This document shows positions 22,047 to 40,162 of a stretch of 43,674 bases of DNA, piece by piece. Below the pieces are notes generated by a model, which searched no databases, was not told the origin of the DNA, and saw only the letters and a list, made by a program, of their open reading frames with translations. The DNA is from a virus, in IMG/VR virus record IMGVR_UViG_3300017781_000022, positions 1 to 43,674 of that record. One strand, given 5' to 3'. Positions within the stretch are counted from its first letter, which is position 1. Every line of letters starts with the position of its first letter. The position numbers were made by a program, and so were the translations under genes.

Positions 22047-25000
22047 ATGCCAGAAGTTAAAAATGCTTTTATAAAATCCAAGATGAATAAAGACCTGGAT
22101 GACAGGCTTGTACCATCTGGAGAATATCGCGATGCAAAAAACGTTCAAATTAGTAGATCAGAAGGATCAGATGTGGGCGCTTTAGAAAATGTATTAGGTA
22201 ATAAAGAAATATTATTTTCAACAACTCTTCCAGTTAGCTTTTCTGCTTTAGTTGGAGCACCTAACATTAAATGTATCGGGAAGTTTGTAGATGAAAACAA
22301 TACTACAATATATAGTTTTTGGACTGATTACTTTGATACTCAGGCTGAAAACAGAATTATATATAGCCCTAGTGCTAAAAATTATATTCTTGCGTATGAC
22401 ATATCTGGTAGCGATAATTATAAGGTTTTAGTTGAAGGTGCTTTTTTAAATTTTTCTCAAACAAATCCTATCATAGGTGTTAACATTATAGAAGGTCTTT
22501 TATTTTGGACTGACGATAGAAACCAACCTAGAAAAATAAATGTTAACTTAGCTAACGAAGCTACAAATCCTCAAAATACATACGCTGTTCCTACATATTA
22601 TACAACTGAAGACTCTATTTCAGTTTCTACTTATAATCCTTATCAAACAATAGAAGTTTTAAATGCTAGTGCGCTAGGCGCTGCTATAGTTGCTACAGCT
22701 GGTTTAAATGGGAATGTTACAGAATCAAAAGCACTTACTTTAAATACACCAACTCCAGTAACAGGACCAATAACGGTTGGCTTAGGTGTTAGGGGTACTG
22801 ATGTGAAAAGCGGTACTATAGTTACTAAAGTAAACAGTCAAACATCTATAGAAACAAACAAAGCTAATACGTTGTTAAACGCTGTTACTTTAAGTTTTAA
22901 TGGTTTAGAAACTACAATGTATGATGTTACATCAGCAAAAATTCCAATACCAGTTGCTACAGCCACTCAAGCTATTGTAGATAATCCTTATTACGATGCC
23001 AACTATGGAGGTGATCCACAGTTTTTAGAAGATAAATTTATAAGGTTTAGTTATAGATTTAAATTTGATGATGGTGAATATTCTATATTTGCACCATTTA
23101 CTCAATCAATGTTTATACCTAAACAAGATGGTTATTTTATAAATGACGATGAAAAACTTACTTATGAAAGTACTATAGTAGATTTCATGGAAAACAAAGT
23201 AACTAAAATAGATTTATTAATTCCATTGCCAGCTACAAGATCAGAACTAGCAACAATAAGTAGTTCAAGTTTAAAAATAACTGAAATAGATATTTTATAT
23301 AAAGAATCTGATGGCCAAGCTATCAGAGTTGTAGATACTATTAAAGTAGAAAATGCATCTCCTTGGAATTTAAACCCTACGGATGATGTATATATTTACA
23401 CATATGAATCTACAAAACCTTACAAAACATTACCTGAGGACGAGTTAATTAGAGTATACGACAGAGTACCTGTAAGAGCAAAAACACAAGAGTTAATAAG
23501 TAACAGAGTTGTGTATGGAAACTTTCAAGACAAACATACACCACCTTCTGCATTAGATTATCAAGTTGGTATTACTGATAAATACGCTACTGATGCAGCT
23601 ATAACATCTTATACAAGAAGTGAATACCCTAATCATTCATTGAAACAAAATAGAAATTATCAAGTAGGTATTGTTTTATCTGATAAGTTTGGTAGACAAT
23701 CAAGTACTATTCTTTCTAACAGTACAGCTGCTTTAGCTAATGGTTTTGGTGCTGACACAGTGTATAGCCCTTATCAAACAGCCGCAGATACAACACCGCC
23801 AGAATGGCCCGGTGATTCTTTAAAAGTTTTATTTAATAGCACAATAGATAGCAATTCACCAGCTACATCTAATAGAAGTTTAGGTACACCTGGTTTATAC
23901 AACAGTGATGTAACAAGTGCTAATTATAATCCACTAGGTTGGTATTCTTATAAAATTGTTGTAAAACAACAAGAACAAGAATATTATAATGTTTACTTGC
24001 CTGGTGTAATGAAAGGTAATCCTGACGGAACTGAAACAGGTGGAGATTTATCAAACATTGTTTTAATTAACGACAATATAAATAAAGTACCTAGAGATCT
24101 TACAGAGGTAGGACCTACTCAACAACAGTTTAGAAGTTCTGTACAACTTTTTGGTAGGGTTCAAAATGATGTTATAGCAACCAGTACCGCTGGTAATGAA
24201 CAATTTTATCCTGATAGACTTTCTGATACAGTAAGTACAATATCTTCTGTTAGAGATTTATTTGATGTTAAAGATGTTACAACCACTATTGACAATCAAG
24301 TTGATATATTTGGTTTTTATAATGCAAAATCAAACCCGCTAATAGGTCAAGTTATTACAACAGCAGAGTTTGGAGTAATAAACACAGCAGCAGCACCTTT
24401 TGTACCTTTATTAAATTTAGCTGTTTTTGAAACTGAACCTGTTGTTTCTAGACTAGATATTTATTGGGAAACATCAACAAACGGTTTAATATCAGATTTA
24501 AATACAGCAGTAGCCACAGACACAGGAGGTGTTCAAGCAACAAAAAACTTTAATTTTGAACAAAACGAAGCTGATATAGTTGGTACAGTTGTAACAACAG
24601 ATGGAGCGGGTAACCCTAGTTTTTTCTACGGAGAAGATGTTGTTGGGGCTAGAATAAACAATGCAATATTAAAAGAAAATAGTAATGGAGACATAATAGG
24701 TCTTACAATTACTGATGGAAATGGTGTAAATAGACCTACTAGTGGTTCTGGAGCAGAGTGGACAATTACAAAACAAGGTAATGGTACGGCTGCTACCCCA
24801 TATGAGTATCAACTTTCTGTTGCTGCAGCTCAATACTATGGGCCAAATGCAACAACTACAGAAAATTATACATTTGATTTTATATGGGATGTAGGTGGTG
24901 TTGAAACAACCCCATCTAGTGAGTCAGGTCAATTAGCAAACACAGCACCAATAATTGATGGAACATGTCCTAGAAGTTTAACAGTAACAACTAGTAATCT

Positions 25001-26204
25001 ACCTGCAATTACTACATTGACAGGTTTAAATGGATCTGCTAATACTAGTGATAATACTAAAGATTTAGTTTGGTCTATAGTTTCTCAAACTCAAGGAGGA
25101 AGTTCAACCACAAATTTTGTAATGACCACAACAAGTAATCAAGGTGTTCTTACAGCTGCAACAGGGGCTGGAACATATGTTGTTGTAGCTAGGGTAACTG
25201 ATGCAGGTGGATTAACAGCTGATTGTACTTTAAATATAACAATAGGTCAACCAGAAGTTCCTAGTAGATTTATAATAAATTCTATGGCACCATTGTTCGA
25301 TGGTGATGGAAAAAGAATTTACTATGCAGATAATTATACTAATTTAGATCAGGACATGAGCGCTATAGGTAGTCAATATATTTATGGAACATCATTAGTA
25401 AGTCCCGCAACAAGTAATACATCTGATAAGTGTGCTGTAGGTCAAAATGGAAATTATGTATTTTCAAGAGATAAAAAATCAGCTGGTTTAGGTTCAGGTG
25501 AAGGAGCATTTTATGTTCATTTTTTTGCTGATGCACCTGTTACAACACCCTCGACAACAACGCAAACATTTAACCCGGTTTCAGCGGTAGTAGAATATAG
25601 AGTAGATTCTACAGCTAACTGGAGTATTGCTGAAACGGTTGACAATAGCTTGATTGGAGGTAATAATATTTCTAACACAAAGTCACAATATAATGGCGCT
25701 GAATCAGGTGTTCCAACTGGAGAAGGAGGTTTAACTAGTATAGGTGGAAACAATAATGAAATAACTTTATCTGGTACAACAGGTGGAACATCCGGAGTAA
25801 GAAGAGTTTTTGCTTTTGATATACCTGGTGAATATAGAATAACAATGGGTGCTTTAAACGGTCAAGTTTGTAATTATGCTGATTGTACTATAAGTAAAAA
25901 TTTTAGTGCCTCTCAAAAGTTTTTAATGGGGGATTACAATTATGGTGGCGGAGTAAGTACACCTCAGCAATATCAATACACTGTTAACGGTAGCACATAC
26001 TATGCTAAAGAACATATAACTAAATATGTAACACAATTATATACCGACTTAGCCTTAACTACACCAGCCACAATTACTGCAGGAAATTATAATTTCTTTA
26101 GACCAAATGTTAACTGGGAATATACTAAAAACGGATCTTACACGGCAGACTTTAATGCTTCAGGGCAAAGAACATCTGTATCCGCTTTAGTTACTTATCC
26201 GTAG
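22047..26204 (+). CDS. Large tail nozzle-like protein with C-terminal Ig-like domain, 1385 aa
   Basis: The start (NKDLDDRLVPSGEYRDAKNV) followed by a beta-rich body is typical of nozzle/tubular B-like proteins of marine podoviruses. SLKQNRNYQVGIVLSDKFGR lies in the middle. Residues about 965-1070 form an Ig/cadherin-like domain (IDGTCPRSLTVTTSNLPAIT; GTYVVVARVTDAGG). The C-terminal ~80 residues (LYTDLALTTPATITAGNYNF) resemble the modules of the 378-aa tail protein at 1797-2933. The protein would extend the tail and display an adhesive domain. The downstream 465-aa protein looks like the propeller part of the same type of protein, so the gene may have been split. Confidence 0.7.
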   Translation: MPEVKNAFIKSKMNKDLDDRLVPSGEYRDAKNVQISRSEGSDVGALENVLGNKEILFSTTLPVSFSALVGAPNIKCIGKFVDENNTTIYSFWTDYFDTQAENRIIYSPSAKNYILAYDISGSDNYKVLVEGAFLNFSQTNPIIGVNIIEGLLFWTDDRNQPRKINVNLANEATNPQNTYAVPTYYTTEDSISVSTYNPYQTIEVLNASALGAAIVATAGLNGNVTESKALTLNTPTPVTGPITVGLGVRGTDVKSGTIVTKVNSQTSIETNKANTLLNAVTLSFNGLETTMYDVTSAKIPIPVATATQAIVDNPYYDANYGGDPQFLEDKFIRFSYRFKFDDGEYSIFAPFTQSMFIPKQDGYFINDDEKLTYESTIVDFMENKVTKIDLLIPLPATRSELATISSSSLKITEIDILYKESDGQAIRVVDTIKVENASPWNLNPTDDVYIYTYESTKPYKTLPEDELIRVYDRVPVRAKTQELISNRVVYGNFQDKHTPPSALDYQVGITDKYATDAAITSYTRSEYPNHSLKQNRNYQVGIVLSDKFGRQSSTILSNSTAALANGFGADTVYSPYQTAADTTPPEWPGDSLKVLFNSTIDSNSPATSNRSLGTPGLYNSDVTSANYNPLGWYSYKIVVKQQEQEYYNVYLPGVMKGNPDGTETGGDLSNIVLINDNINKVPRDLTEVGPTQQQFRSSVQLFGRVQNDVIATSTAGNEQFYPDRLSDTVSTISSVRDLFDVKDVTTTIDNQVDIFGFYNAKSNPLIGQVITTAEFGVINTAAAPFVPLLNLAVFETEPVVSRLDIYWETSTNGLISDLNTAVATDTGGVQATKNFNFEQNEADIVGTVVTTDGAGNPSFFYGEDVVGARINNAILKENSNGDIIGLTITDGNGVNRPTSGSGAEWTITKQGNGTAATPYEYQLSVAAAQYYGPNATTTENYTFDFIWDVGGVETTPSSESGQLANTAPIIDGTCPRSLTVTTSNLPAITTLTGLNGSANTSDNTKDLVWSIVSQTQGGSSTTNFVMTTTSNQGVLTAATGAGTYVVVARVTDAGGLTADCTLNITIGQPEVPSRFIINSMAPLFDGDGKRIYYADNYTNLDQDMSAIGSQYIYGTSLVSPATSNTSDKCAVGQNGNYVFSRDKKSAGLGSGEGAFYVHFFADAPVTTPSTTTQTFNPVSAVVEYRVDSTANWSIAETVDNSLIGGNNISNTKSQYNGAESGVPTGEGGLTSIGGNNNEITLSGTTGGTSGVRRVFAFDIPGEYRITMGALNGQVCNYADCTISKNFSASQKFLMGDYNYGGGVSTPQQYQYTVNGSTYYAKEHITKYVTQLYTDLALTTPATITAGNYNFFRPNVNWEYTKNGSYTADFNASGQRTSVSALVTYP

Positions 26205-26221
26205 TAATAAAATAAATAAAT

Positions 26222-26232
26222 AAGTGATAATA
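26222..26232 (+). promoter_or_regulatory. Intergenic motif AAGTGATAATA, copy 3
   Basis: Third exact copy, ending 2 bases before the ATG at 26235 and after a run of AAATAAATAAATAAG. Unlike the other two copies no hairpin follows. Confidence 0.35.
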
Positions 26233-26234
26233 AT

Positions 26235-27632
26235 ATGGGAGCCATAATAGAAGTAAAATACTTTAATTCTTTTCTATTGAAAAAGACTTACGATCCTGCA
26301 ACTAGCGCACCTGGTTGGAATGGTTCTTTTGGTGTACCTAATGGTGTTGCTGGTTCTTACCCTGTTTTTTCTAACCCTACAGATGCTGATAGTTGGGCTA
26401 TAGAAGAAGCTAGAATAAGAGGTGGATATAATAACACTAATGTAGATTATGGCGTAAAAGCTTATTTAGTAGAAGATGAACCTAATTCTTCTGTTAGATT
26501 TAATGCTATGATTTATTCTGGTATTTTTAATTCTAGAACTGGTATAAATAATACTAATGAATTTTCTGTAGGTAAAGATATAACTAAAGCTGTAGATCCA
26601 ATTAATGGATCTATACAAAGATTATATGCTGAAGATACAGCATTAATTATATTTCAACAAGATAAAGTTAGTAGAGCTCCAATAGATAAAGACGTTATAT
26701 ATAATGCTGAAGGTGGTGGAAGCTTAACAGCTTCAAATATGGTTATAGGTAATATTATACCTTATGCAGGTGAATATGGAATTAGTAATAATCCAGAAAG
26801 TTTTGCAGTTTATGGTTACAGAAAGTACTTTACTGATAAAAATAGAAATGCTGTTTTAAGGTTGTCTAGAGATGGTATAACTGAAATATCTCAGTATGGT
26901 ATGATAGATTACTTTAGAGATCAGTTTGGCGCTTTAAATACACAAACGTTTGGTGCTGGTAAAGCTATAGGTGCTTACGATATATACAACAAGCAATATG
27001 TACTTTCATTACAACAAAGTCCTAAATCAGCAGGTGGTGTAACAAACCCTTCACCAAGTTTTGCAACTGTTATATTTGATGAAAGAGTTTTAGGTTGGCC
27101 AGGTTTTATGGACTACAAGCCAGATCAAACATTTAGCTTACAAAGCAATTACTATAGTTTTAAAGACGGTGGGTTTTGGAAACATTATGATCAAACTCAA
27201 TCAAGAAATAATTTTTATGGATTTCAATATGATTCTTCTATAAAATTTGTGTTTAATCCTCAAGTGAGTGTTAGTAAAGTTTTTAAAACAGTTAATTACG
27301 AAGGTAGTAATGGTTGGAAAGTTAATCAATTTGATGGTGCTAGATCTTTTGAATTAGTAGATTCATCTCAAATTGTACTAAGTTATAATGATGGTGCTTA
27401 CACTCAAAATGGTATACAATACTACGCTGGCTTTGTTAAAAAAGAAGGTAAATATTTTGCTAACTTAGTAAATAGTAGCCCGGCTACAACAGGTGAAGTT
27501 GTGTTTGGTGCATCAATGACTGGTGTTAAAGGTTATTATGCAACTGTCACTATTACATCAGATAGCACATCTAGAACTAATCCTATGGAATTGTTTGCTG
27601 TGTCATCAGATTTTGTAGAATCATCATATTAA
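26235..27632 (+). CDS. Tail nozzle / propeller-like structural protein, 465 aa
   Basis: Beta-rich, with segments typical of tubular propeller proteins: GSIQRLYAEDTALIIFQQDK, NIIPYAGEYGISNNPESFAV, YRKYFTDKNRNAVLRLSRDG and GKAIGAYDIYNKQYVLSLQ. No enzymatic motif. In this kind of protein these blades usually follow the DKFGRQS-type part now found in the 1385-aa protein just upstream. I infer that two adjacent genes encode what is elsewhere one polypeptide. The N-terminal MGAIIEVKYFNSFLLKKTYD has no signal peptide. Confidence 0.65.
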   Translation: MGAIIEVKYFNSFLLKKTYDPATSAPGWNGSFGVPNGVAGSYPVFSNPTDADSWAIEEARIRGGYNNTNVDYGVKAYLVEDEPNSSVRFNAMIYSGIFNSRTGINNTNEFSVGKDITKAVDPINGSIQRLYAEDTALIIFQQDKVSRAPIDKDVIYNAEGGGSLTASNMVIGNIIPYAGEYGISNNPESFAVYGYRKYFTDKNRNAVLRLSRDGITEISQYGMIDYFRDQFGALNTQTFGAGKAIGAYDIYNKQYVLSLQQSPKSAGGVTNPSPSFATVIFDERVLGWPGFMDYKPDQTFSLQSNYYSFKDGGFWKHYDQTQSRNNFYGFQYDSSIKFVFNPQVSVSKVFKTVNYEGSNGWKVNQFDGARSFELVDSSQIVLSYNDGAYTQNGIQYYAGFVKKEGKYFANLVNSSPATTGEVVFGASMTGVKGYYATVTITSDSTSRTNPMELFAVSSDFVESSY

Positions 27633-28055: not shown

Positions 28056-28832
28056 ATGGCAATAGCAACAGCAACAGCACTGACAATTGGAGCGGTAGCA
28101 GCTGGAACAGCAGCAACAGCGTCCGTTGTAGGTGGAGCAATTCAGTCAGGCCAAGAACACAAGGCGATGAGAAATGCTAGAAACGCAAAAGAAATAGCGG
28201 CGGCTAAAGTTAAAGCACTTCAAGACGGTAGGCAAGATATAATAAACCCTTATGCGGGTGTAACAGATTTATCTGACATGGCTAAAGATTTATCTAGCAT
28301 GATGAGTAATCCTTTTGAAAGCTTAGGTGTTGCAACTCAAGCAGCTGAAATACAAGCTGAAGAAGCAGATATATCATTAGCTAATACTTTGGATATGTTA
28401 AGAGCAACTGGAGCTAGTGCTGGTGGAGCAACTGCTTTAGCACAAGCTGCATTAGCTAGTAAAAAAGGAGTTAGTTCTAGTATAGAACAACAAGAGGCTC
28501 AAAACGAAAGGCTAAAAGCACAAGGTGCACAAAACTTAATGCAAGCGCGAGTAACAGAACAACAAAGACTACAAAATATTGCTATATCAGAAGGACAAAG
28601 AACTCAACAGGCAGATGCACAGGGTAAACTATTTGAATTTAATGCTCAAGAGGATAGAGATAATTCAGATATTAGTTACAATATAGCTAAAGAAACTGGA
28701 GGTGCTCAAAGAGAGGCAGCGGCAAGATCACGTAGGGATAATGCTACAGCTGGTATATTTACTGGTGTTGGTAACGTTGCAAGTGGAATAGCTTCAACCG
28801 CTCTTACCGCTGGATTATCGCCGGGAAAGTAG
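28056..28832 (+). CDS. Internal virion protein (T7 gp14-like position), 258-aa zero-frame product
   Basis: Starts with a hydrophobic Ala/Thr/Gly helix (LTIGAVAAGTAATASVVGGA), then long Ala/Gln/Glu-rich helices (AAEIQAEEADISLANTLDML; QQRLQNIAISEGQR), and ends with another Gly/Ala-rich hydrophobic stretch (GIASTALTAGL). This matches gp14-type ejection proteins that insert in the host envelope. The zero-frame stop TAG directly follows the slippery sequence GGGAAAG. A -1 shift would add 30 residues, to 28921, giving 288 aa. Confidence 0.72.
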   Translation: MAIATATALTIGAVAAGTAATASVVGGAIQSGQEHKAMRNARNAKEIAAAKVKALQDGRQDIINPYAGVTDLSDMAKDLSSMMSNPFESLGVATQAAEIQAEEADISLANTLDMLRATGASAGGATALAQAALASKKGVSSSIEQQEAQNERLKAQGAQNLMQARVTEQQRLQNIAISEGQRTQQADAQGKLFEFNAQEDRDNSDISYNIAKETGGAQREAAARSRRDNATAGIFTGVGNVASGIASTALTAGLSPGK

Positions 28833-28849
28833 GAGGGGCGAGGGCCCCT
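28823..28849 (+). promoter_or_regulatory. Candidate -1 programmed ribosomal frameshift signal
   Basis: The heptamer G-GGA-AAG at 28823-28829 is in the correct X-XXY-YYZ phase and is the one used in lambda G/GT. The zero-frame TAG follows at once (28830). After a 4-base spacer, AGGGGC (28834-28839), loop GAGG and GCCCCT (28844-28849) form a perfect GC-rich stem. The -1 frame is open to 28921. Confidence 0.72.
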
Positions 28850-28921
28850 GTAAAATCCGTAAACACATTAACCCCACAAGGTTCTACTGTCGGATTATCG
28901 GCACCGGTGTATACTGGATAA
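28829..28921 (+). CDS. 30-residue -1 frame extension of the internal virion protein
   Basis: Read after a -1 shift at 28823-28829, this gives VGGARAPVKSVNTLTPQGST then VGLSAPVYTG and TAA. It uses ordinary phage codons and leaves an 18-base gap before the next gene, like other gaps here, whereas the zero-frame stop would leave an untypical 107 bases. It is Pro/Thr/Val-rich and likely extended. It is not an independent gene; it has no start. Confidence 0.6.
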   Translation, partial: VGGARAPVKSVNTLTPQGSTVGLSAPVYTG

Positions 28922-28939
28922 AAAAATAATAATAATAAT

Positions 28940-30643
28940 ATGGGATATACAATACCAGGTGCAGATTTTACAGCACCCTCACAATTACAAACAAACGTTG
29001 GTGCCGAAGTAGGTAAAAGTTTAGGAAATGTTTTTGCTCAATTTGGAGCACAGCTAAGACAAGCTAACGAGCAAGCTCAAAAAACTTCAGCGCTGCAAAC
29101 GCAGATGAAAGACACTATACTAATAAACAATACTAAGTCTGTAAACAAAACACTAAGTGCTGGTAAAGAACAATTTGGTGATGATGAAGTATTGTACAAC
29201 GAGTGGAAAAATGAAGTTGTTAGAAGAGGTGAAGAGGCTACACAAGCTCAAATAGATTTTCAATTTGGAGATTTAGATGCTGCTAGTAAAAAAGCAAAAT
29301 TAGATATTGTTGGAGGCTTTGAAAGTTATTTAACTGAAAGCAAACAAAATTATGGTAGATTTTTAGCTGATGTAAATGATATTGATACAGATGGTATGAG
29401 AATTATAGGTGATACTACTAATGGTGAACAACAAAGTAATCAAATAATTTTAAACGCAAACAGTGGTGGAAGTGCAGAAGATCTTTTTGGAAAAGGAGCA
29501 ACAATGACAAGATCATTGAGTGGTGATAATAAACAAATTATAAATACACGCGTAAGAATACCTGTTAATTCACCTATGTTAAAAACACTAGGTAGTAAAA
29601 GTAATGGAACCTCTATATCTGTTTTTGAAAAAGGAGTGGAAGAAGGTATAATAAAGAAAAATGTAGGTGAAGATGGAATGTATTATTATGAATTTGATAA
29701 AAAAATAGATACTAGTAGATATTCTAAAAAAGGTGGATTTGATTTTGTAATACCAAAAGATACCGCTATAGATGGTGGTGCTACTGCACAAGAACTAGGT
29801 TATGTTGATAAAAACATGATTATAAAACCTGACATGTTTGCACAAATGAACGTTGGAGTTGCTAAAGAAACCGTAGATGGTGCAGACGTTAATCCAAGTG
29901 TTGGTGAACCAGCTGTATATACATCAACTTCAACTAAAAATTCTCAAAAAGGATTTGTAAGAACTACCAACTCAAGCATTATTAACGTTGCTCAAATGAG
30001 AAACGATCCTGCACTAGGTGTTATAGTAAACTCTAAGGTTAAAGGCATGTTATTAAGTGGTAGAGGTACAGACGCTAAGCTAGACAGTTTTGGAGCCTAT
30101 GGTGTAGATAGTTTAGATGCTTTTCCATCGTTAAAAAATAAATATAAAACTTTAAGAGGTTTTATAGAATCTGGAGATGAAAACGTTTTAAATACTTTTA
30201 CAAAAAGTATGGTGACACAAACTGTATTTGATAAATTGTTTAGTAAAACAGATAATAAAGGTGATAGGGTTTATACACAAATGACTGCTGATCCAAAAAT
30301 GGTAGAATTTTTAAACGCTAACAATATACGAAATGAAGCAAACGAACCTTATGAAGCAGGTCAAACTGTTTATGTTAAAAATGAAATAACAGAAAGACAA
30401 ATTCAAAAAGATGCTGGACCAGACTTTAATGAACAAATGAAATCTAATTTAGGAAATGAAAAAGCAAATCTAGAAAGTTTGTTTGCTGTCGCGGTACAAA
30501 TACCTGGACCAGCTAAATCTAAAGTAGCATATTTTCCAGCTGTAGGTAAAGAAAAAGCTGGTGTTTATAGAATAGATGATGACGGGGCCAAAGGTATAGG
30601 TGCTACCCCAATGTCAAGGGAATTTTTACTAGGATTATTTTAA
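28940..30643 (+). CDS. Internal virion protein candidate (T7 gp15-like position), 567 aa
   Basis: The N-terminus (YTIPGADFTAPSQLQTNVGA) leads to a long helical, Gln/Ala-rich region (residues 20-150), with the rest mixed alpha/beta. There is a Lys/Gly-rich middle (KKGGFDFVIPKDTAIDGG) and a C-terminal YFPAVGKEKAGVYRIDDDG segment. No peptidase or glycosidase motif is visible. Its place between the gp14-type gene and the giant last gene suggests an ejection-tube component. Start follows AATAATAATAAT directly before ATG. Confidence 0.55.
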   Translation: MGYTIPGADFTAPSQLQTNVGAEVGKSLGNVFAQFGAQLRQANEQAQKTSALQTQMKDTILINNTKSVNKTLSAGKEQFGDDEVLYNEWKNEVVRRGEEATQAQIDFQFGDLDAASKKAKLDIVGGFESYLTESKQNYGRFLADVNDIDTDGMRIIGDTTNGEQQSNQIILNANSGGSAEDLFGKGATMTRSLSGDNKQIINTRVRIPVNSPMLKTLGSKSNGTSISVFEKGVEEGIIKKNVGEDGMYYYEFDKKIDTSRYSKKGGFDFVIPKDTAIDGGATAQELGYVDKNMIIKPDMFAQMNVGVAKETVDGADVNPSVGEPAVYTSTSTKNSQKGFVRTTNSSIINVAQMRNDPALGVIVNSKVKGMLLSGRGTDAKLDSFGAYGVDSLDAFPSLKNKYKTLRGFIESGDENVLNTFTKSMVTQTVFDKLFSKTDNKGDRVYTQMTADPKMVEFLNANNIRNEANEPYEAGQTVYVKNEITERQIQKDAGPDFNEQMKSNLGNEKANLESLFAVAVQIPGPAKSKVAYFPAVGKEKAGVYRIDDDGAKGIGATPMSREFLLGLF

Positions 30644-30652
30644 AAATAAAAT

Positions 30653-33600
30653 ATGGAAATATATATACTAGATGGTCAAGAACTAACTCTAGAACAACTA
30701 CAAGCTTTAGCTGATGAAGCTGGGGCTGGTCTAGAAGACTTTAAATATTTTAAAGGTGTAACAGTAAAGAAAAAGGATGTTGCGGATCTAGATGCAACTG
30801 CAGCATCCACAAATACCGCAGCATCTTGGGAATCACAATTGGCAAATACCAGATTGGGTTGGGAAAAATATCGTAAAACTCAACTTCTAAATAAAGAAGG
30901 TAAGTATGATCCTAATTTAATTGCAGACCCTAACCACAGGATGCCTGATGGAGGACAGAACTATACAAACAAGCGAAAAGAATTTATAATAAAAGAAAGG
31001 GAACTAAATGATAAGATTAAGGGCTATTATTTAGATCCAAAAAATATAGACTTTGCAGACTATAAAACAGTTTTAAATCAAAATGAAGACTCTGTAAAAG
31101 AAGCTATAAGAACAAAATTTCCATTTTATAACGTTGAAGATGGTACCGCAGGTAATTTACTTAAAATACAAACAGCAGAAGGTTTTAAAGAAATAGATTT
31201 AAATCCTATATTTAGTGGTGACAAAGAGAAAGCTATAGAAACTATAAAATATTTAGATCAAGCTTCTAAAGATTTAAAAGATGAAGAGATTATAGCTTTA
31301 AGCATGAACAAGCTAGCTGATAATATTAAAGAAACAGGTAATGTTGGTGCCGTTAACACTTGGCTAGAAGGTAATACTCCTTATCAAATTGAAAAAACAA
31401 TAGTACCTGGTAAAACTTCTACTGGATTACAAGGTGTTTCTACACCAGACACAACTATGTATAACATAGTCAAAGATGGTAAAACAATTAGTTCTTTACC
31501 TATAGATAAGCTAGATGATTTTTTAAGAAATAATATAACCGAAGAAGAGTTTGGAAAAATGAACTCAGTCTCTGTCAAAGCCTTAGAGGTTGGAGCTGCG
31601 CTGAAAAAAGCTTATATAACAGAACAACAGGAAACAATTGAAACTAAACCTGCTACAAAAATAAAATACTATAAAGATAATTTTGCTAAAGATGCTTTAA
31701 AAGTAATGGACGGTTTAACTGGTATTACGGAAGAAGATAAAGAAATAGTAGAAACATACATAACAAATACTCAGAATCAAAAAGGTGAATTGCAATTAGC
31801 TACAGTGCCAGGCTTAACCAGAAGACAAGGCGTATCGCCTAATCAAATAATAAAAGAACTTACAGCTTTAGATGGTTTGCCGGATGAGTTAAAACAACGC
31901 TTAGTAGATGCTGGTTTTATTGACGCAATGAAATCAAGTGTTGACATTGGTATAAAAGATGTTGCTTTTAAAGAGGTGAATAAAGGTATTCCTACTATGC
32001 TAGAAGATATATTAACTGAATTTGATAAAGGTGAATTATTAGATTTAGCCAATTATTATAATACAAAAATAGCTGGAATAACAAGAAACAAAGAGACTGG
32101 GGACATTACAGAAATTGCTAAAATTGATGTAGAAAACTTAGATTTAGATGGTAGCATTAGAGATCAAATAAAAATAAGTGGTGATATTTCTGACACTAAC
32201 AAGTTTATAATTAAAAGAGCTTATCAAAAAGATGAAAAAGAAGCTATAAAAGCTTATGAAGATTTTTACCCTGCTAAACTAGATTCAATAACAAAAGAGG
32301 TAATATCTTTAGGTAAACAATTACCTGAAGATGCTTATATTTATACAACCAGTACACCTAGTGGGCCTTTGTTAAGAATAAAAGTTGACAGAAAAGTTTC
32401 AACTTCTGAAAACGAAAAAATAAAAAACATAAGTGGAAAGCTAGCGGGTTTACAAAGTACATATCATAATTTAGAATTTGATAGAAAAAATGCTGCTAAT
32501 AAAATAATAAACAATCGTAATGCTTTTTACGATCAGTTACAAGATGCAGAAAAAAATGACGACATAATAGCTGCAGCAAATAAAGAATTTGGATTAGGCA
32601 ACTTATTAGTTAAAGATGTTAATGATGCTTTTTCTACTCTTGCTCTAACAGTACCAACTTTGTTTGATTCTGAGTGGGCTATAGGTAAACAAAAGCAATT
32701 AAACGATAAGAATAATTATTACAAAACAATGACTGAGCCTGAGTTTAGCGCTGAGTATATTCTTAGAACTTTAGGCCAACAGTCAGCAAACATTACATTA
32801 GCTTTAGCTACAGCAGGTGGTGGATCTGCTTTAGGCTTAACAAATGCAACAGTGGCTAATACAATAGGTATAGGGTTTGGTGCTGTGTCGGGTACACAAA
32901 CATTTAGAGACTTAAGCATAGAGGTTGATACATACGAAGAAGCAGAGGAGCAAGCTAAAATATATAAAGCTGCTTTTGATAGAGGTGAAATTAGTAAGTA
33001 TAATTATGATATGGCTATGAGAGATATAAATACTACTCTAGCTATGGAAAAATTAACAGACAGCCAAATAATGCTTGCTTCTACATCTAACGCATTAATA
33101 GAAGGTACGTTTACTAGATTCTTGGGTACAGCGGCTAATTCTATAGCTTTAGTTAAAAACTTTAATACTGTAAACAGAAAAGCAATAGCAGAAAATTTAT
33201 ACAAAGGTGGATTTACAAAAGCAATAAATATAATAGGTAGACCTTTAGTTGGTAGAACTGGTCTTGAGACTGTAGAAGAACTAGGTATTTTTGCTGGGCA
33301 AAACTTTATAACTGATACAGCTATATTAGGTAGAGGTGCAGATAGAGAAACATTTTTAAAAGGTGCTAACGAAACTTTCTGGGCAACTGTAGTTACGGCT
33401 GGTATGTCTCAGTCAACAGGTATAACTTATAGCGGTATGAACTCTATGGGTTTAATTAAAGAATATGAAAAAGCTTTAAATAAAAAAAGGTTTGCGTTAA
33501 ATGATCTTTCTTTGTCTATACAAAATGCTACAGATCCAAACATAAAAAAAGCTTTATTGTTTGATTATCAACAAGAATTAATAGGCATGGGACTAGACAT

Positions 33601-36600
33601 AGACTCAAACTCTGTAGATCTTTTAAATCTTACAAACGAAGACAGTCAAGGTAATTCTGATTTAAAAAGATTAATAGGTACTCAATTAATTAAACAAGAT
33701 TATTTAAGAAGTTTAGGTATACAACCAGGTACAGATGCACAACAAATTTCAGCCATAGAAGCTTTAAAAAATAAATCAACTAAGCAAGAAAAAAAAGATA
33801 TAGAAAATACTTTAAGTAGTCTTGATAATCAAATAAATAATATAAAAGAAAAAGGGTCTAAGGCTTCTAACTATGATGTGGCTAAAAATGCTTTAGGCGC
33901 TACTTATACTATTTATGATAATAAATTAAAAGACGATGTTGATTACAAAGCTGCATCTACAAAAGATAAGCTTGTTAAAATAATAAATGCTGTAAGACAA
34001 GAGACGGTTTTAGAAAATACAGACAATGCTAAGTCAGATCCTGCAATTGTTGAAGCTGTTGAAAGTAGATATGCAGATCTAAATGACAAGCAGAAAGATA
34101 AAATCTATGAAAACATAGGTGCTAATATGGCTTTACAAAAAGGTAGAGGCTTTAGTAACCAATTAAATATAGATAGACAAGCTGCCTCTATACTTAGTGA
34201 TGTAAAAGGTATAACAGTTGTAGGTGTTAAAACAGATCAACAAATAGCAGATGCTATTGAAGAGGCTGGACTTTCTCCTTTTGAAGCTAAAGAATCTTAC
34301 AATAAACTAAAAGAAGGTAAAACATTTGGTCTTGTTATAGGTAAAACTATAATAACACAAAATGAAGATGCAATGAATGCTGATCTTGACAACGGTATAA
34401 TAAGAGCAGGTACAGTTGTATTGCATGAGATTAATCACATCATTGATGATGCTAGGATAAAACCTGAAAACAGAAAAAAATATGCTGTAAATTTATTTGA
34501 AGCAGCAAGCACTAGCTCTAATAAAGCTATACAAGATATTCATAACGAAACAATAGACATGTTAAGTAGAATATATGGTGAAACTGTTATCACAGATTTT
34601 AAAAACAAAAGCGCTAAGTTTCAAGATGAGTATACTAAATACTTACAAGAGCAATTGTTTGCATATGAAGACGTTGCACAAATAGAACAAGATGATAGTT
34701 TCATTACTAGACTTTTAAACAGTACTAATCCTAATAATTTAAACACACCTGAAAAAGCTTTAAGCTATTTAGCTGCTAGTAACTCTGCATTTAGAAAAGG
34801 TAAAGTATCTAGTTCAACTAAAAAAGCTATAGAAAGTTTTGAAGGAAATGTAAACGAATCTCAAAAGTCTGATAAAGATATAAATAATCTAGCTATTGAA
34901 TATAAGAATTTAGGTAGTGACTTAAACGCTCAAGGTAAATTTTTATTAGACACTAATTTTTTACAGCAATATACTAATACAGCTTTAGCCGCTATGGGTT
35001 ACGATGTTAGAGCAGGTGATATAACAACTGACGAAGCAACAAGTTTTGTACAAAAATCTTTCCCTAGAGTTATAAGAACATATAAACCTGAGACTGAAGG
35101 ATCTTTTACTAACTGGGTATATTCAACTGTAGGTAGAGAGGGTAAAGGATTTTTTAAAGAAAAAATAGAAGCAAATAAAGATAAGGTTAGAATAACAGAA
35201 AAATCTCAATTTGTAAGTAAAGAAACAGCAGAAGATACTATTGATTTAGAAGCTAGAAAAAAATCAGAGGGTAAAGATAAATCTTTAGTAGATCCAAGAA
35301 AACTACCAGGAGTACCAGCAGATATTGACAACCTTGTAGAGGTTAATAAAAATGAAGTTGTAATAAATCCTGAATCAAGATCTTATACTACAGATTTTAG
35401 AAGTATATCGGATAAGTATGGTTCTAAAATAGCAGGTGAAATTTATGGCATAAACCCTAGCAAACTTAAAAAAGGTGCTGATCTTACATACGGTCAAAAT
35501 AAAGTACTTGATGGTAGAAAAGTAATTTCAGAGGCTGAAAGAATACAAAGTGATTATGTTAATGTTCAAGATGCAAAAAAACTAATATCTTTATTTCCTG
35601 AATATAGCATAAGCACGCCAACAGCTGTAACAACAGAACAAGGCCAGGAGACTAAAGTTGATAAAGAGGTACAAGGTAGATCATTGGGTATTGCACCCAG
35701 TGTTTTAGATTTTTTCTATGAAACTTACATTGATCCTAAAGCTTTAAACAAAGAAACTAAAAAAGATGCTATAACAAACCCTAAGGGTAGAGCCAAAGGA
35801 ACATCAAGTCAACCATACGTTAGAAGATTGAAGCCTGAATTTATAGGTAATATAACTAATGAAACCATAGCTAAAGTACAGAAAAAACTAGGAATTACAG
35901 GTAGAGGTGAATTTAATGTACCACCCAAAGGTAAAGCAAGAACTGAGTTTGGTAGACTACTTATAGGTCTTGCAAATTTAAAAGGAGCTATTGTAGCCAA
36001 TACGGTTGTAGATCAAAAAATACAAGCACTAATTAAAAAAGGTGAAATAAAATCTGCTAGAACTCCAGAACAAATTACAGCTAGCACAAGAGCTGGTAGA
36101 AGCAAAGTTCAATTTAGTACAAAAGATTTTGCATTAAAATTAAAAAATTACGGAAATTTAAAAACAGGTAAAATAACAAATAATACTCTTAAAAATTTAA
36201 CACTTAAAGAATTAAATAATCTTGGTTATATTACCGTAGCAGATGTTAAAAATAAATTAGGATTATCTCTTAAAAAAGATGATAAAATAAAGCTTATAGA
36301 AAAAAGCGGTTACAAAGTGTTATCACCAAGATTTGAAAATGAATTTGTTCCTGGTTTAACTGAATTTTTAAACGACTATCCACAGTATAGAAATATTATA
36401 AGACAATCAACAACTTCTTCTCTTTCAAGAAACTCTATAGGTGCAACACCATTGTTTGATAGACTTTTTCCAAGAACAAATAATAATGTAGAACAGAAAA
36501 GAGACGCTTACAAAACAGCTTCTACTGAAAACACTAGAAAATCTGGAAAAGTAGGTAAACTATCGCAAGCGTTTGTTAAAAAAGTTTTAGCAAATCCTGA

Positions 36601-39600
36601 TAAGTTTATTAGAAATCAATATGCTAAATTAAAAGTTCTTGAAGCGTTTATGATAGATGTTCAATCTTTTTTAAATAAACCTGGTAATAAAAACAAAACT
36701 TTTATTTTTGAACAAATATTAGATGATGGGCAAAACAATATGGGAAGTTTAATGAGAGTTTCTCCTCCCATATTATATTTACCTTTTAAAAACGGTAAAA
36801 TAGATTTTGAATCTAAAATTAGAGAAGAACATAATTTTCCAGCAAATCAAATAGGTAGTTTTTTATTAGGTGCAGCAAAAGATGGTATGGTTGAAGACGC
36901 TTTTAAAATAGTTAGCGCTGCTTATATGCAAGGTCCTTTAACTATTGACGATGATAATAAAGTTAATTTACTTTATAGTTCTACAATGCCCGATATATTT
37001 TGGGATAAAATAGCTCCTAGAATACTTAAAGGTGAATTAGTAATACCTGAAGGATTTGCTTCTGTAATAAGACTAACAGAATCAGATGTAAACTTAGATA
37101 ACTATACATTGATTGATGAAGGTAAAACTTTTAGTGAATGGTTGTTCGGAACAAATGGTTTATCCTTAGCGGAGCAAAAACTATTTACTAGAGAATTTTT
37201 AGCAGAAGGTGTATCTTTAAAAGATATAAAAGCTAAAGCTAAGTTTTCTACAAAAGTAACTGAAACAGTTAATAAAACTTTTAAACCAAATGCTTCTACA
37301 GTTATAGCTAAAAATAATACTGCTGATAAAGCTATGGCTGATGCTAGAGATAGTGTTAAATATAGTGAAAAAAGAAAAGGTATTAGTGTGTTTGATTTTG
37401 ACGATACACTTGCGCAGTCAAATAGTAATGTATTATATACCATGCCTGATGGAACAACAGGTTCTCTTAATGCAGGTGAATTTGCTTTAGAAGCATCTGG
37501 ACTAACTAAGTTAGGTGCTGAGTTTGATTTCAGTGAATTTAACGAGGTTAAAGAAGGTAAGAAAGGTCCATTAGCAGATGTTGCTTTAAAAAGACAAGGT
37601 AAGTTTGGTAGCAAAGATATATTTGTGTTAACCGCTAGACCTCAGTCTTCTGCTATAAACATTAAAAAGTTTTTAGATGAGATCGGTTTAAACATACCTT
37701 TAGAAAATATAACTGGATTAGAAAACGGTACGGCAGAAGCTAAAGCCGAGTGGATGATAGGTAAATATGCTGATGGCTATAATGATTTTTATTTTGCTGA
37801 TGATGCTTTTAAAAACGTAGAAGCAGTTAGAAATGTATTTGATGTATTAGATGTTAAGTCTGATGTACAACAAGCTAGAGTTAAGTTTAGTGAAAAAATA
37901 GATAAAGACTTTAATGACATGATCGAAAGAAACATGGGTGTTAAATCAGAATCTACTTACTCAGATATTTTAGCAAGACGATTAGGTAAAAATCAAAAAC
38001 GATTTGCATTTTTTATACCTCCGTCTGCTGATGACTTTAGAGGATTAACTATGTATACATTTGCTGGTAAAGGTAAGCAAGGTGAATTAGATCAAGACTT
38101 TTTTGATAAAGCTTTAATTAAACCTTACATGGGTGCTATTAATGCTATGGAACTAGCTAAGAATAGAATTAAAAATGCTTATAAAGTTTTACAAAAAACT
38201 AGTCCTAATGTTAGGAAAAAATTAAATAAAAAAATTGGTGGTACTAAGTATACCCATGATCAAGCAATTAGAATTTACTTATGGAATAAAGATGGTGTAA
38301 CTATACCTGGTCTTTCTAAGACAGATCAAAACCAATTAGTAAAACTAGTGGAAGCAAATACAGATTTAGTTGCTTATGCTGAAGGTGTTAAGTTAATTAC
38401 TAAACAAGATACGTATGTTCCACCTAATGAATTTTGGGATGGTACCACAATAATAGGAGACTTAGGTAGATTATCTAGAGAAATAAACAGAAGCGATTAC
38501 TTAAAAGAATTTAATGACAATGCAGATATTTTATTCAGCCCTAAAAATATGAATAAAATAGAAGCTGTGTATGGCTTTAGAGTAAGAGAAGCTTTAGAAA
38601 ACTCTTTATACAGAATGAAGACTGGTAGCAATAAAGCTGCTGGATCAGGTAGAATAGTGACTGCTTGGAACAACTGGGTTAATAACTCTGTTGGTGCTAT
38701 TATGTTCTTTAACAGAAGATCTGCATTGCTACAGATGTTGTCTGCTGGTAACTTTGTTAACTGGTCAGATAATAATCCTTTAAAAGCTGGTTTAGCATTT
38801 GCTAATCAACCTCAGTATTGGAAAGATGTAGTGTACATATTTAACTCACCTAAGTTAAAAGCTAGAAGACAAGGGCTTGAGGGTGATATACAAGAAAAAG
38901 AAATTGCTGAAGCGTCTAGAAAAGGTGGTATGGAAGGTGTTTTATCTTATCTATTAAAAATAGGTTTTACACCTACGCAAATAGCAGATAGTATAGCAAT
39001 ATCTACAGGTGGTGCATCGTTCTATAGAAACAGAATCAACACGTATAAAAAAGAAGGATATACAACTGAAGATGCAGAGAAAAAAGCATTTGATGATTTC
39101 TCAGCTATATCAGACGAGACACAACAGTCAGCAGATCCTATGTTAATATCATCACAGCAAGCAGGTGTATTAGGTAGATTAGTATTAGCATTTCAAAACA
39201 CACCTATGCAGTACACTAGGTTAATGAAAAAAGCTGGGCAAGATCTTATAAACAGAAGAGGTGATGCTAAAACAAATATATCTAAGATATTATACTACGG
39301 GTTTATTCAAAACTTAATATTCTCTACATTACAAAATGCTATGTTTGCTTTTGTACCTGGGTTTGAAGATGATGAAGAAGAGCCTGATTTTAAAACAGAC
39401 AAAGAAAGAGATGCTTGGTTAGTTAAGCAAGGTAATAAAGAAAATAAAAAAGTAACAAGAGTTGCTAACAACATGATTGATACTATTTTAAGAGGATCTG
39501 GTTTAGCTGGCGCAGTTGTGTCTACTATTAAAAACGTTATAATGGAATATAACGAAAGAGAAGACATGACAGTTCTACAAAAATCTAGAGCTAATGCAGA

Positions 39601-40162
39601 TTTATTAATAGCTTTAACAAGTATATCTCCACCTATAAGTTCTAAGATTAGAAAAATAAATAATGCTTTAGATATAGAAGACTTTGAAAAAGATGTTATA
39701 GCAGAAAGAGGTTATAGCGTTATGATTGACGATAGATTTCAATTAAGTCCTCAGTATGATGTTATAGGTAATGTTGCTTCTGCTACTTTAAATTTACCTT
39801 TAGATAGAGTTTTTAATGAAGTTAATTCTATTACCGAAGCTTTAGACAATAGAAACAGTGCATACCAAAGATTAGCTTTAGGATTAGGTTGGAAAACATG
39901 GGATGTAAATGCTAAAATAGAAGAGCATGATCTTATAAAAACAAATGCTAAATCAAAAAGAAAAGTTGAAGGCATAGAAAAAAGTAAGGCAACTAGAAAG
40001 ACCAATAAAGAATTAGAAAAAATACAGAAAAGATTAAGAGCACAGGTATTAAATGCTTTACCAGGCGTAATGAGAGACAGTATAAGACGTAAGGAAAAAG
40101 AAGATAAAAAAATGACCGCAACATACAAGTTGAATCAATTGAAAGCAAAGTATATAGACTAA
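30653..40162 (+). CDS. Giant multidomain virion/polyvalent protein, 3169 aa
   Basis: The largest gene here, at the end of the internal-virion block (the T7 gp16 position). Visible parts in order: an acidic N-terminus (QELTLEQLQALADEAGAG); charged helical stretches to ~700; a hydrophobic Ala/Gly segment at ~710-750 (TLALATAGGGSALGLTNATV); an HExxH zincin motif VVLHEINHIID (H1258, E1259, H1262); a segment at ~1455-1500 (PRVIRTYKPETEGSFTNWVY) resembling sigma region 2; a Lys-rich region; a HAD-type domain from ~2245 (VFDFDDTLAQ with D2248/D2250, later LTARP and FADDAF); and a long helical C-terminus (~2420-2910, with hydrophobic stretches). It is probably injected with the DNA and supplies several activities. 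Only the motifs are seen; activity is inferred. Confidence 0.75.
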   Translation: MEIYILDGQELTLEQLQALADEAGAGLEDFKYFKGVTVKKKDVADLDATAASTNTAASWESQLANTRLGWEKYRKTQLLNKEGKYDPNLIADPNHRMPDGGQNYTNKRKEFIIKERELNDKIKGYYLDPKNIDFADYKTVLNQNEDSVKEAIRTKFPFYNVEDGTAGNLLKIQTAEGFKEIDLNPIFSGDKEKAIETIKYLDQASKDLKDEEIIALSMNKLADNIKETGNVGAVNTWLEGNTPYQIEKTIVPGKTSTGLQGVSTPDTTMYNIVKDGKTISSLPIDKLDDFLRNNITEEEFGKMNSVSVKALEVGAALKKAYITEQQETIETKPATKIKYYKDNFAKDALKVMDGLTGITEEDKEIVETYITNTQNQKGELQLATVPGLTRRQGVSPNQIIKELTALDGLPDELKQRLVDAGFIDAMKSSVDIGIKDVAFKEVNKGIPTMLEDILTEFDKGELLDLANYYNTKIAGITRNKETGDITEIAKIDVENLDLDGSIRDQIKISGDISDTNKFIIKRAYQKDEKEAIKAYEDFYPAKLDSITKEVISLGKQLPEDAYIYTTSTPSGPLLRIKVDRKVSTSENEKIKNISGKLAGLQSTYHNLEFDRKNAANKIINNRNAFYDQLQDAEKNDDIIAAANKEFGLGNLLVKDVNDAFSTLALTVPTLFDSEWAIGKQKQLNDKNNYYKTMTEPEFSAEYILRTLGQQSANITLALATAGGGSALGLTNATVANTIGIGFGAVSGTQTFRDLSIEVDTYEEAEEQAKIYKAAFDRGEISKYNYDMAMRDINTTLAMEKLTDSQIMLASTSNALIEGTFTRFLGTAANSIALVKNFNTVNRKAIAENLYKGGFTKAINIIGRPLVGRTGLETVEELGIFAGQNFITDTAILGRGADRETFLKGANETFWATVVTAGMSQSTGITYSGMNSMGLIKEYEKALNKKRFALNDLSLSIQNATDPNIKKALLFDYQQELIGMGLDIDSNSVDLLNLTNEDSQGNSDLKRLIGTQLIKQDYLRSLGIQPGTDAQQISAIEALKNKSTKQEKKDIENTLSSLDNQINNIKEKGSKASNYDVAKNALGATYTIYDNKLKDDVDYKAASTKDKLVKIINAVRQETVLENTDNAKSDPAIVEAVESRYADLNDKQKDKIYENIGANMALQKGRGFSNQLNIDRQAASILSDVKGITVVGVKTDQQIADAIEEAGLSPFEAKESYNKLKEGKTFGLVIGKTIITQNEDAMNADLDNGIIRAGTVVLHEINHIIDDARIKPENRKKYAVNLFEAASTSSNKAIQDIHNETIDMLSRIYGETVITDFKNKSAKFQDEYTKYLQEQLFAYEDVAQIEQDDSFITRLLNSTNPNNLNTPEKALSYLAASNSAFRKGKVSSSTKKAIESFEGNVNESQKSDKDINNLAIEYKNLGSDLNAQGKFLLDTNFLQQYTNTALAAMGYDVRAGDITTDEATSFVQKSFPRVIRTYKPETEGSFTNWVYSTVGREGKGFFKEKIEANKDKVRITEKSQFVSKETAEDTIDLEARKKSEGKDKSLVDPRKLPGVPADIDNLVEVNKNEVVINPESRSYTTDFRSISDKYGSKIAGEIYGINPSKLKKGADLTYGQNKVLDGRKVISEAERIQSDYVNVQDAKKLISLFPEYSISTPTAVTTEQGQETKVDKEVQGRSLGIAPSVLDFFYETYIDPKALNKETKKDAITNPKGRAKGTSSQPYVRRLKPEFIGNITNETIAKVQKKLGITGRGEFNVPPKGKARTEFGRLLIGLANLKGAIVANTVVDQKIQALIKKGEIKSARTPEQITASTRAGRSKVQFSTKDFALKLKNYGNLKTGKITNNTLKNLTLKELNNLGYITVADVKNKLGLSLKKDDKIKLIEKSGYKVLSPRFENEFVPGLTEFLNDYPQYRNIIRQSTTSSLSRNSIGATPLFDRLFPRTNNNVEQKRDAYKTASTENTRKSGKVGKLSQAFVKKVLANPDKFIRNQYAKLKVLEAFMIDVQSFLNKPGNKNKTFIFEQILDDGQNNMGSLMRVSPPILYLPFKNGKIDFESKIREEHNFPANQIGSFLLGAAKDGMVEDAFKIVSAAYMQGPLTIDDDNKVNLLYSSTMPDIFWDKIAPRILKGELVIPEGFASVIRLTESDVNLDNYTLIDEGKTFSEWLFGTNGLSLAEQKLFTREFLAEGVSLKDIKAKAKFSTKVTETVNKTFKPNASTVIAKNNTADKAMADARDSVKYSEKRKGISVFDFDDTLAQSNSNVLYTMPDGTTGSLNAGEFALEASGLTKLGAEFDFSEFNEVKEGKKGPLADVALKRQGKFGSKDIFVLTARPQSSAINIKKFLDEIGLNIPLENITGLENGTAEAKAEWMIGKYADGYNDFYFADDAFKNVEAVRNVFDVLDVKSDVQQARVKFSEKIDKDFNDMIERNMGVKSESTYSDILARRLGKNQKRFAFFIPPSADDFRGLTMYTFAGKGKQGELDQDFFDKALIKPYMGAINAMELAKNRIKNAYKVLQKTSPNVRKKLNKKIGGTKYTHDQAIRIYLWNKDGVTIPGLSKTDQNQLVKLVEANTDLVAYAEGVKLITKQDTYVPPNEFWDGTTIIGDLGRLSREINRSDYLKEFNDNADILFSPKNMNKIEAVYGFRVREALENSLYRMKTGSNKAAGSGRIVTAWNNWVNNSVGAIMFFNRRSALLQMLSAGNFVNWSDNNPLKAGLAFANQPQYWKDVVYIFNSPKLKARRQGLEGDIQEKEIAEASRKGGMEGVLSYLLKIGFTPTQIADSIAISTGGASFYRNRINTYKKEGYTTEDAEKKAFDDFSAISDETQQSADPMLISSQQAGVLGRLVLAFQNTPMQYTRLMKKAGQDLINRRGDAKTNISKILYYGFIQNLIFSTLQNAMFAFVPGFEDDEEEPDFKTDKERDAWLVKQGNKENKKVTRVANNMIDTILRGSGLAGAVVSTIKNVIMEYNEREDMTVLQKSRANADLLIALTSISPPISSKIRKINNALDIEDFEKDVIAERGYSVMIDDRFQLSPQYDVIGNVASATLNLPLDRVFNEVNSITEALDNRNSAYQRLALGLGWKTWDVNAKIEEHDLIKTNAKSKRKVEGIEKSKATRKTNKELEKIQKRLRAQVLNALPGVMRDSIRRKEKEDKKMTATYKLNQLKAKYID

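Follow-up and report, generated by a model that had tools for sequence, protein, structure and literature searches.

A Putative −1 Frameshift Signal Extending a gp14-like Internal Virion Protein in Marine Phages

Short-tailed phages send their DNA across the cell envelope through a channel built of ejection proteins, and what fixes the copy numbers and symmetry mismatches of these proteins is unsettled. The T7 core contains eight copies of gp14 and the T7 channel six; the protein lies between the portal barrel and gp15, and the symmetry mismatch is bridged by gp6.7 (PMC11784390). A two-isoform ratio built into the gene itself would, if true, directly address this question. The window analyzed here, a viral record of 43,674 bases taken in full, carries a gene whose last two sense codons belong to a slippery heptamer, and it raises the question of whether one protein or two are made from it. 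The features of the locus are these:

28056–28832, + strand: zero-frame gene, 258 aa, likely a gp14-like internal virion protein
28823–28829, + strand: slippery heptamer G_GGA_AAG, in frame and abutting the stop
28830–28832, + strand: zero-frame stop TAG
28834–28849, + strand: likely stimulatory hairpin, AGGGGC (28834–28839) pairing with GCCCCT (28844–28849) around the loop GAGG
28829–28918, + strand: −1 frame extension of 30 codons, VGGARAPVKSVNTLTPQGSTVGLSAPVYTG, closed by TAA at 28919–28921
Predicted extension peptide in the window: SVNTLTPQGSTVGLSAPVY
Predicted extension peptide in homologue L032: TVDEFEMPDFSK
28940–30643, + strand: next gene, 567 aa, in the gp15 slot of a gp14-gp15-gp16 order

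The 3′ end of the 258-aa gene reads CCG GGA AAG TAG, and the stem, a perfect 6-bp GC helix, begins after a spacer of 4 nt. The −1 frame closes 18 nt before the next ATG (28940), and joining the zero-frame part to the extension gives a predicted isoform of 288 aa. The coordinates given in an earlier note for the gene end, heptamer, stem, −1 frame and next-gene spacing all held when the sequence was read again. The 258-aa protein has a hydrophobic N-terminus, long helices and a hydrophobic C-terminal segment, after which the tail would follow.

The reading preferred here, at a probability of roughly 0.9, is that programmed −1 ribosomal frameshifting adds a C-terminal extension to a minority of the copies of a gp14-like internal virion protein, giving isoforms of 258 and 288 aa. 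Ribosomes translating the ejection-protein gene would arrive at G_GGA_AAG, the final two sense codons, and would be stalled there by the downstream hairpin, probably together with slow termination at UAG. A minority would re-pair one base back, from GGA to GGG and from AAG to AAA, and these slipped ribosomes would skip the stop and translate the 30 codons of the −1 frame. Two products would result at a set ratio, the 258-aa form predominating over the 288-aa form; both presumably enter the virion, where the tail on a minority of subunits might serve core or portal assembly or contacts during ejection, for example by adapting the core to the portal. Work in E. coli, which may not be this phage's host, has shown G_GGA_AAG to be highly shift-prone (PMC5009743).

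The strongest evidence for such a signal comes from its recurrence. Eight scans of viral contigs yielded 193 distinct metagenomic homologues, and a terminal heptamer, defined as GGGAAAN or AAAAAAG inside the last three codons, was found in 24 of them against about 0.2 expected; in the subset of the first 175 homologues, 23 were counted where the frequency in the remainder of these genes predicts 0.17. GGGAAAG is the predominant type (13 members), followed by AAAAAAG (4), GGGAAAT (3), GGGAAAA (2) and GGGAAAC (2). The stop follows the heptamer directly in 18/24 and comes one or two codons later in the remaining six. By comparison, 633 other distinct ORFs in the loci served as a control and gave one heptamer end, with a −1 frame of just 4 codons, so that a chance heptamer is ruled out. 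An extra or missing base, which the earlier note had named as a way in which the candidate could fail, is also excluded as a sequencing or assembly error, since diverged homologues on many independent contigs from many metagenomes concur. Identical sequences were also recovered from different samples (L006/L007 and L014/L015).

Each of the 24 heptamer homologues has a −1 extension, of 15–49 aa with a median of 32 among the complete ones, and the spacing of the genes accommodates it. Between the zero-frame stop and the next ATG lie 59–159 nt (median 109) in homologues with a heptamer and a median of 12 nt in those without, while the extension stop precedes the next ATG by a median of 14.5 nt in the 22 measurable members. 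In other words, the extension of the heptamer homologues ends at a normal distance from the next gene, and homologues without a heptamer have almost no room. Among homologues lacking a canonical heptamer, a measured gap of 60 nt or more occurs once, apparently in L239 (79 nt), where GGGGGAAGAC is joined by a −1 frame of 27 aa and a strong GCGCCG/CGGCGC hairpin. Two others, L056 (GCT-TTT-TAG) and L501 (CTA-AAG-TAA), are probable further members, and the tail of L501 is 88% identical to that of L012 over 24 aa. The bypassed stop is TAG in 19/24 homologues with a heptamer versus 18/169 without (Fisher p=5e-12), an enrichment that may reflect slow termination or merely the Gly or Ala codon that comes next in the −1 frame. 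The extensions themselves stop at TAA in 23/24 complete cases of an earlier set. Because about 166 of the 193 homologues have no such arrangement, the extension must be dispensable in most of the family. No homologue was detectable in isolated phages (tblastn with four queries against a phage collection), and none was found in bacterial genome contigs.

A second line of evidence is the hairpin. Scored as one simple hairpin starting 1–9 nt past the heptamer and compared with dinucleotide shuffles, the 23 members had a mean energy of −5.56 kcal/mol versus −1.03 ± 0.40 in the shuffled sequences, none of 300 shuffles being as low; the hairpin of the window reaches −11.7 kcal/mol (p=0.01 against shuffles). 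GC-rich 4-bp stems starting at +3 to +7 occur in 18/23, as opposed to 0–1/23 in windows further downstream, and the stem sequences vary among lineages. The earlier note had worried that a 4-base spacer, shorter than the typical 5–9, may lower efficiency, but stems starting 4–6 nt past the heptamer turn out to be the norm in this family. Six members that align without gaps share the same 4-bp stem, in which all four pairs (4/4) show two-sided changes and 100% of cells are paired, versus 17–67% when the stem is slid to other registers; as these six were chosen because the stem fits one register, the covariation backs the shuffle test and does not stand on its own. An MFE z-score over 45 nt (mean z −1.0) was too blunt a measure, and the fixed-position hairpin test was used instead. 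A clear simple hairpin was not seen in the heptamer members L027, L212, L387, L173 and L541, and inspection by eye revealed no consistent loop pseudoknot pairing among members. Taken as a whole, the hairpin likely stimulates shifting at the heptamer, to judge from its position and pairing.

A third line comes from the protein that the −1 frame would encode. Of 300 pairs of extensions, nine are similar past a Bonferroni threshold; L014 and L016, for example, share YKPNDTVGFY..LF, and L001 and L012 share TPT.TY..S.L.D.FKV.NP. Where six pairs were compared, the third position of −1 codons accounts for 70 of 149 nucleotide differences (p=4e-4), in a test whose codon alignments were built in the −1 frame and lean slightly in favor of this outcome. 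The other two frames contain stops inside the extension in nearly all members; in the window, the +1 frame over the extension is open by chance, and it is closed in most relatives. Readthrough of the stop and a +1 shift are ruled out by these early stops. A search for homologues with the tail fused in frame found none beyond the reversed-sequence null. As far as sequence comparison can tell, what the extensions conserve is the protein encoded in their −1 frame. The comparison of homologues that the earlier note had called for speaks in its favor: the proposed combination of heptamer, hairpin and −1 extension recurs in the 24 distinct homologues, with hairpins of the varying clarity described above, and an uninterrupted-frame version of the extension was not found.

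Considering that a ribosome could also reach the −1 frame by other means, several explanations have to be weighed against tandem slippage. The one with some real, if small, chance of being correct is a slip of a single tRNA in the P site at the stop, with AAG in the P site and UAG in the A site, which would give the same products. The abutting stop in 18/24 members and the strong enrichment of UAG would suit it, as would L056, whose GCT-TTT-TAG is compatible with a one-tRNA slip only, and L501, where CTA-AAG-TAA is followed by the −1 tail nearly shared with L012. Set against this, most members retain GGG before AAA, as a tandem slip predicts, and six have their stop one or two codons later. 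Slippage by the polymerase, producing a mixed pool of mRNAs, is very improbable: the AAAAAAG of four members could invite it, but GGGAAAG offers no long homopolymer, and a downstream hairpin at a fixed spacer fits ribosomes.

Two further explanations do without any slip in these genes. A separate small gene, or reinitiation after the stop, might be supposed for a region that lies between two operon genes with a stop nearby, but there is hardly any prospect of it, as ATG, GTG and TTG are absent from the −1 frame, from 20 codons upstream through to its end, in many members; the window has just one start-like codon there, number 26 of the 30, and the heptamer would be left unexplained. Least credible is the idea that the extension is what remains of a C-terminus once encoded in frame and that the −1 frame is open by chance. 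The trait is indeed patchy, with 17 changes on a 165-row tree, yet the frame is open in 24/24 members, the lengths are narrow, the protein is conserved, the hairpins carry compensatory changes, and the in-frame version was not found.

Because the 17 changes on the tree compare with 23.6 in shuffled data (0/500 as low), the trait is, on the evidence of this phylogeny, inherited but often gained or lost. All four members of the window's clade (the window, L001, L004 and L006) have it, and the extension is wholly absent from the nearest heptamer-less homologues, L002 and L003. L318 and L032 are 84% identical, and signal and tail are complete in one of them and cleanly missing from its partner; this contrast is a recent gain or loss. 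The tails appear to have a history of their own. The window and L001 are 89% identical in their core regions and have dissimilar tails, and the tail type of L001 is shared with L012 (core 59%) and L173 (core 55%). The simplest reading is that tails have been swapped between lineages as cassettes, always behind the signal and in the −1 frame. Since the tail always lies behind the signal and an in-frame fusion was never seen, minority dosage itself would seem to be selected. At roughly even odds, then, a widespread group of marine podophages would use conserved −1 frameshifting to set the isoform ratio of a gp14-like protein, with the tails as an exchangeable cassette whose minority dosage is under selection. 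If true, a selected minority tail might, for example, reconcile the differing symmetries of core and portal or make a host-specific contact.

The identity of the 258-aa protein is drawn from its surroundings and from weak matches. The gene order (muzzle, 133 aa, 258 aa, 567 aa and 3169 aa) parallels gp097–gp101 of Cellulophaga phage phi38:1, and the 258-, 567- and 3169-aa genes follow one another as gp14-like, gp15-like and larger gp16-like genes would. Such a small, middle and giant order is that of the podophage gp14-gp15-gp16 ejection genes (PMC8954989). The 258-aa gene occupies the slot of phi38:1 gp099, whose product is annotated as a virion structural protein, and a profile of 99 homologues matched gp099 with an hhalign probability of 93%. 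Weak PHROG matches were to a virion structural protein in five members and to a DNA ejection protein in one. The predicted model is almost all helix, and its top fold match in BFVD is an Internal virion protein (E=2.2e-4, with a weak TM of 0.41/0.36). No Pfam family was found, nor a solved structure, either by sequence or by fold in the PDB. A gp14-like internal virion (ejection) protein is likely from synteny together with weak profile and fold matches. The label given in the earlier note is thus partly supported, by gene order and position, the weak fold match and the PHROG hit to a DNA ejection protein in one member; neither T7 gp14 nor any of its structures matched in sequence.

Several neighbors deserve mention in their own right. 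The upstream protein carries a crassvirus muzzle C-terminal domain (PF25729, E=1.2e-13), and among annotated phages its matches are nearly all from phages of Bacteroidota (Cellulophaga, Flavobacterium, Tenacibaculum, Maribacter and Bacteroides). This muzzle-like protein is a single 1324-aa gene in Cellulophaga phi38:1 and is divided in the window into genes of 1385 and 465 aa with a 30-nt gap (22047–27632). The same split with exactly the same gap occurs in L001 (280–5577) and L004 (40–5577), which suggests a genuine division of the gene. The protein in the gp16 position, at 3169 aa (30653–40162), is far larger than T7 gp16 (1318 aa), and PHROG gave only a weak match to it, within the N-terminal part. 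Four frameshift-less homologues of the 258-aa protein (L044, L059, L075 and L338) have an in-frame C-terminus that resembles the chaperone domain of endosialidases (Peptidase_S74), with a best E of 2.4e-4 that narrowly misses the Pfam cut-off; such a domain would be odd for an internal virion protein.

Frameshift-extended capsid and tail proteins of virions are already established, and the closest functional parallels to the present case are gene 10 of T7 and T3 and a kuravirus capsid protein. The 10A/10B pair, with which the earlier note had compared the isoforms predicted here, likewise arises from a −1 shift near the end of a virion gene that gives a minor, C-terminally extended isoform (PMC5009743). 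Gene 10 encodes a capsid protein, however, with a heptamer of the G_GU class and, in T7, a distant 3′ stimulator, whereas the present gene encodes a likely core or ejection protein and has GGGAAAG, a close hairpin and short, variable tails. The major capsid protein of kuravirus-like YF01 shares GGGAAAG near the stop, the −1 direction and the extended isoform (PMC9965538), but its extension is about 540 aa, in contrast to the 15–49 aa on an internal protein seen here.

The comparison with lambda G/GT, also drawn earlier, is sound as regards the heptamer. There too, a −1 slip near the 3′ end occurs at a fixed low rate that sets the ratio of two products, and the frameshift is widely conserved in phages; the lambda proteins differ in being chaperones that are absent from mature virions, in having a T part that is a domain, and in belonging to a different gene. 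The gene neighborhood here is of the podophage type with a nozzle/muzzle protein, and not that of a long-tailed phage with an adjacent tape measure gene. Listeria phages PSA, A118 and A500 and Lactobacillus phage A2 also have frameshift-extended structural proteins, although these are capsid or tail proteins, often with +1 shifts or Ig-like domains. For Ig-like extensions, whether a version lies in frame or out of frame is regarded as a matter of chance (PMC5009743), unlike the present extensions, of which every one seen lies in the −1 frame behind the signal. With gp14 of T7 and the ejection proteins of other podophages, the 258-aa protein shares the slot before genes of gp15 size and giant genes in the gp16 position, as well as its helical character and hydrophobic ends; the known proteins have 181–240 aa, and a detectable match in sequence or solved structure is what sets it apart from them by its absence.

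A review of ejection proteins does not mention frameshifting (PMC8954989), no report of it in an ejection-protein gene was found in the open-access literature searched, and the crassvirus structural atlas is silent as well. The class of gene, the wide conservation and the swapping of tails look new, and the short list of frameshift-extended virion proteins would gain a gene class. An injected protein appears to come in two versions in many marine phages, and gene calls made in the standard way, closing at the zero-frame stop, would leave out about 30 conserved residues in such phages. Moreover, the roughly 25 diverged signals provide a natural series for studying frameshift sites at a stop codon.

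Two smaller features of the window may be added. The alternative C-termini resemble one another, AGLSPGK (28810–28832) and VGLSAPVYTG (28890–28918) both lying over ggattatcg..ccgg, and this likeness perhaps points to a small duplication at the origin of the window's tail. Finally, near-identical A/T-rich leaders (...aataataataATGgg) precede two genes, at 26212–26240 and 28918–28945, and are possibly a recurring initiation leader of the Bacteroidota type that functions without a Shine-Dalgarno sequence.
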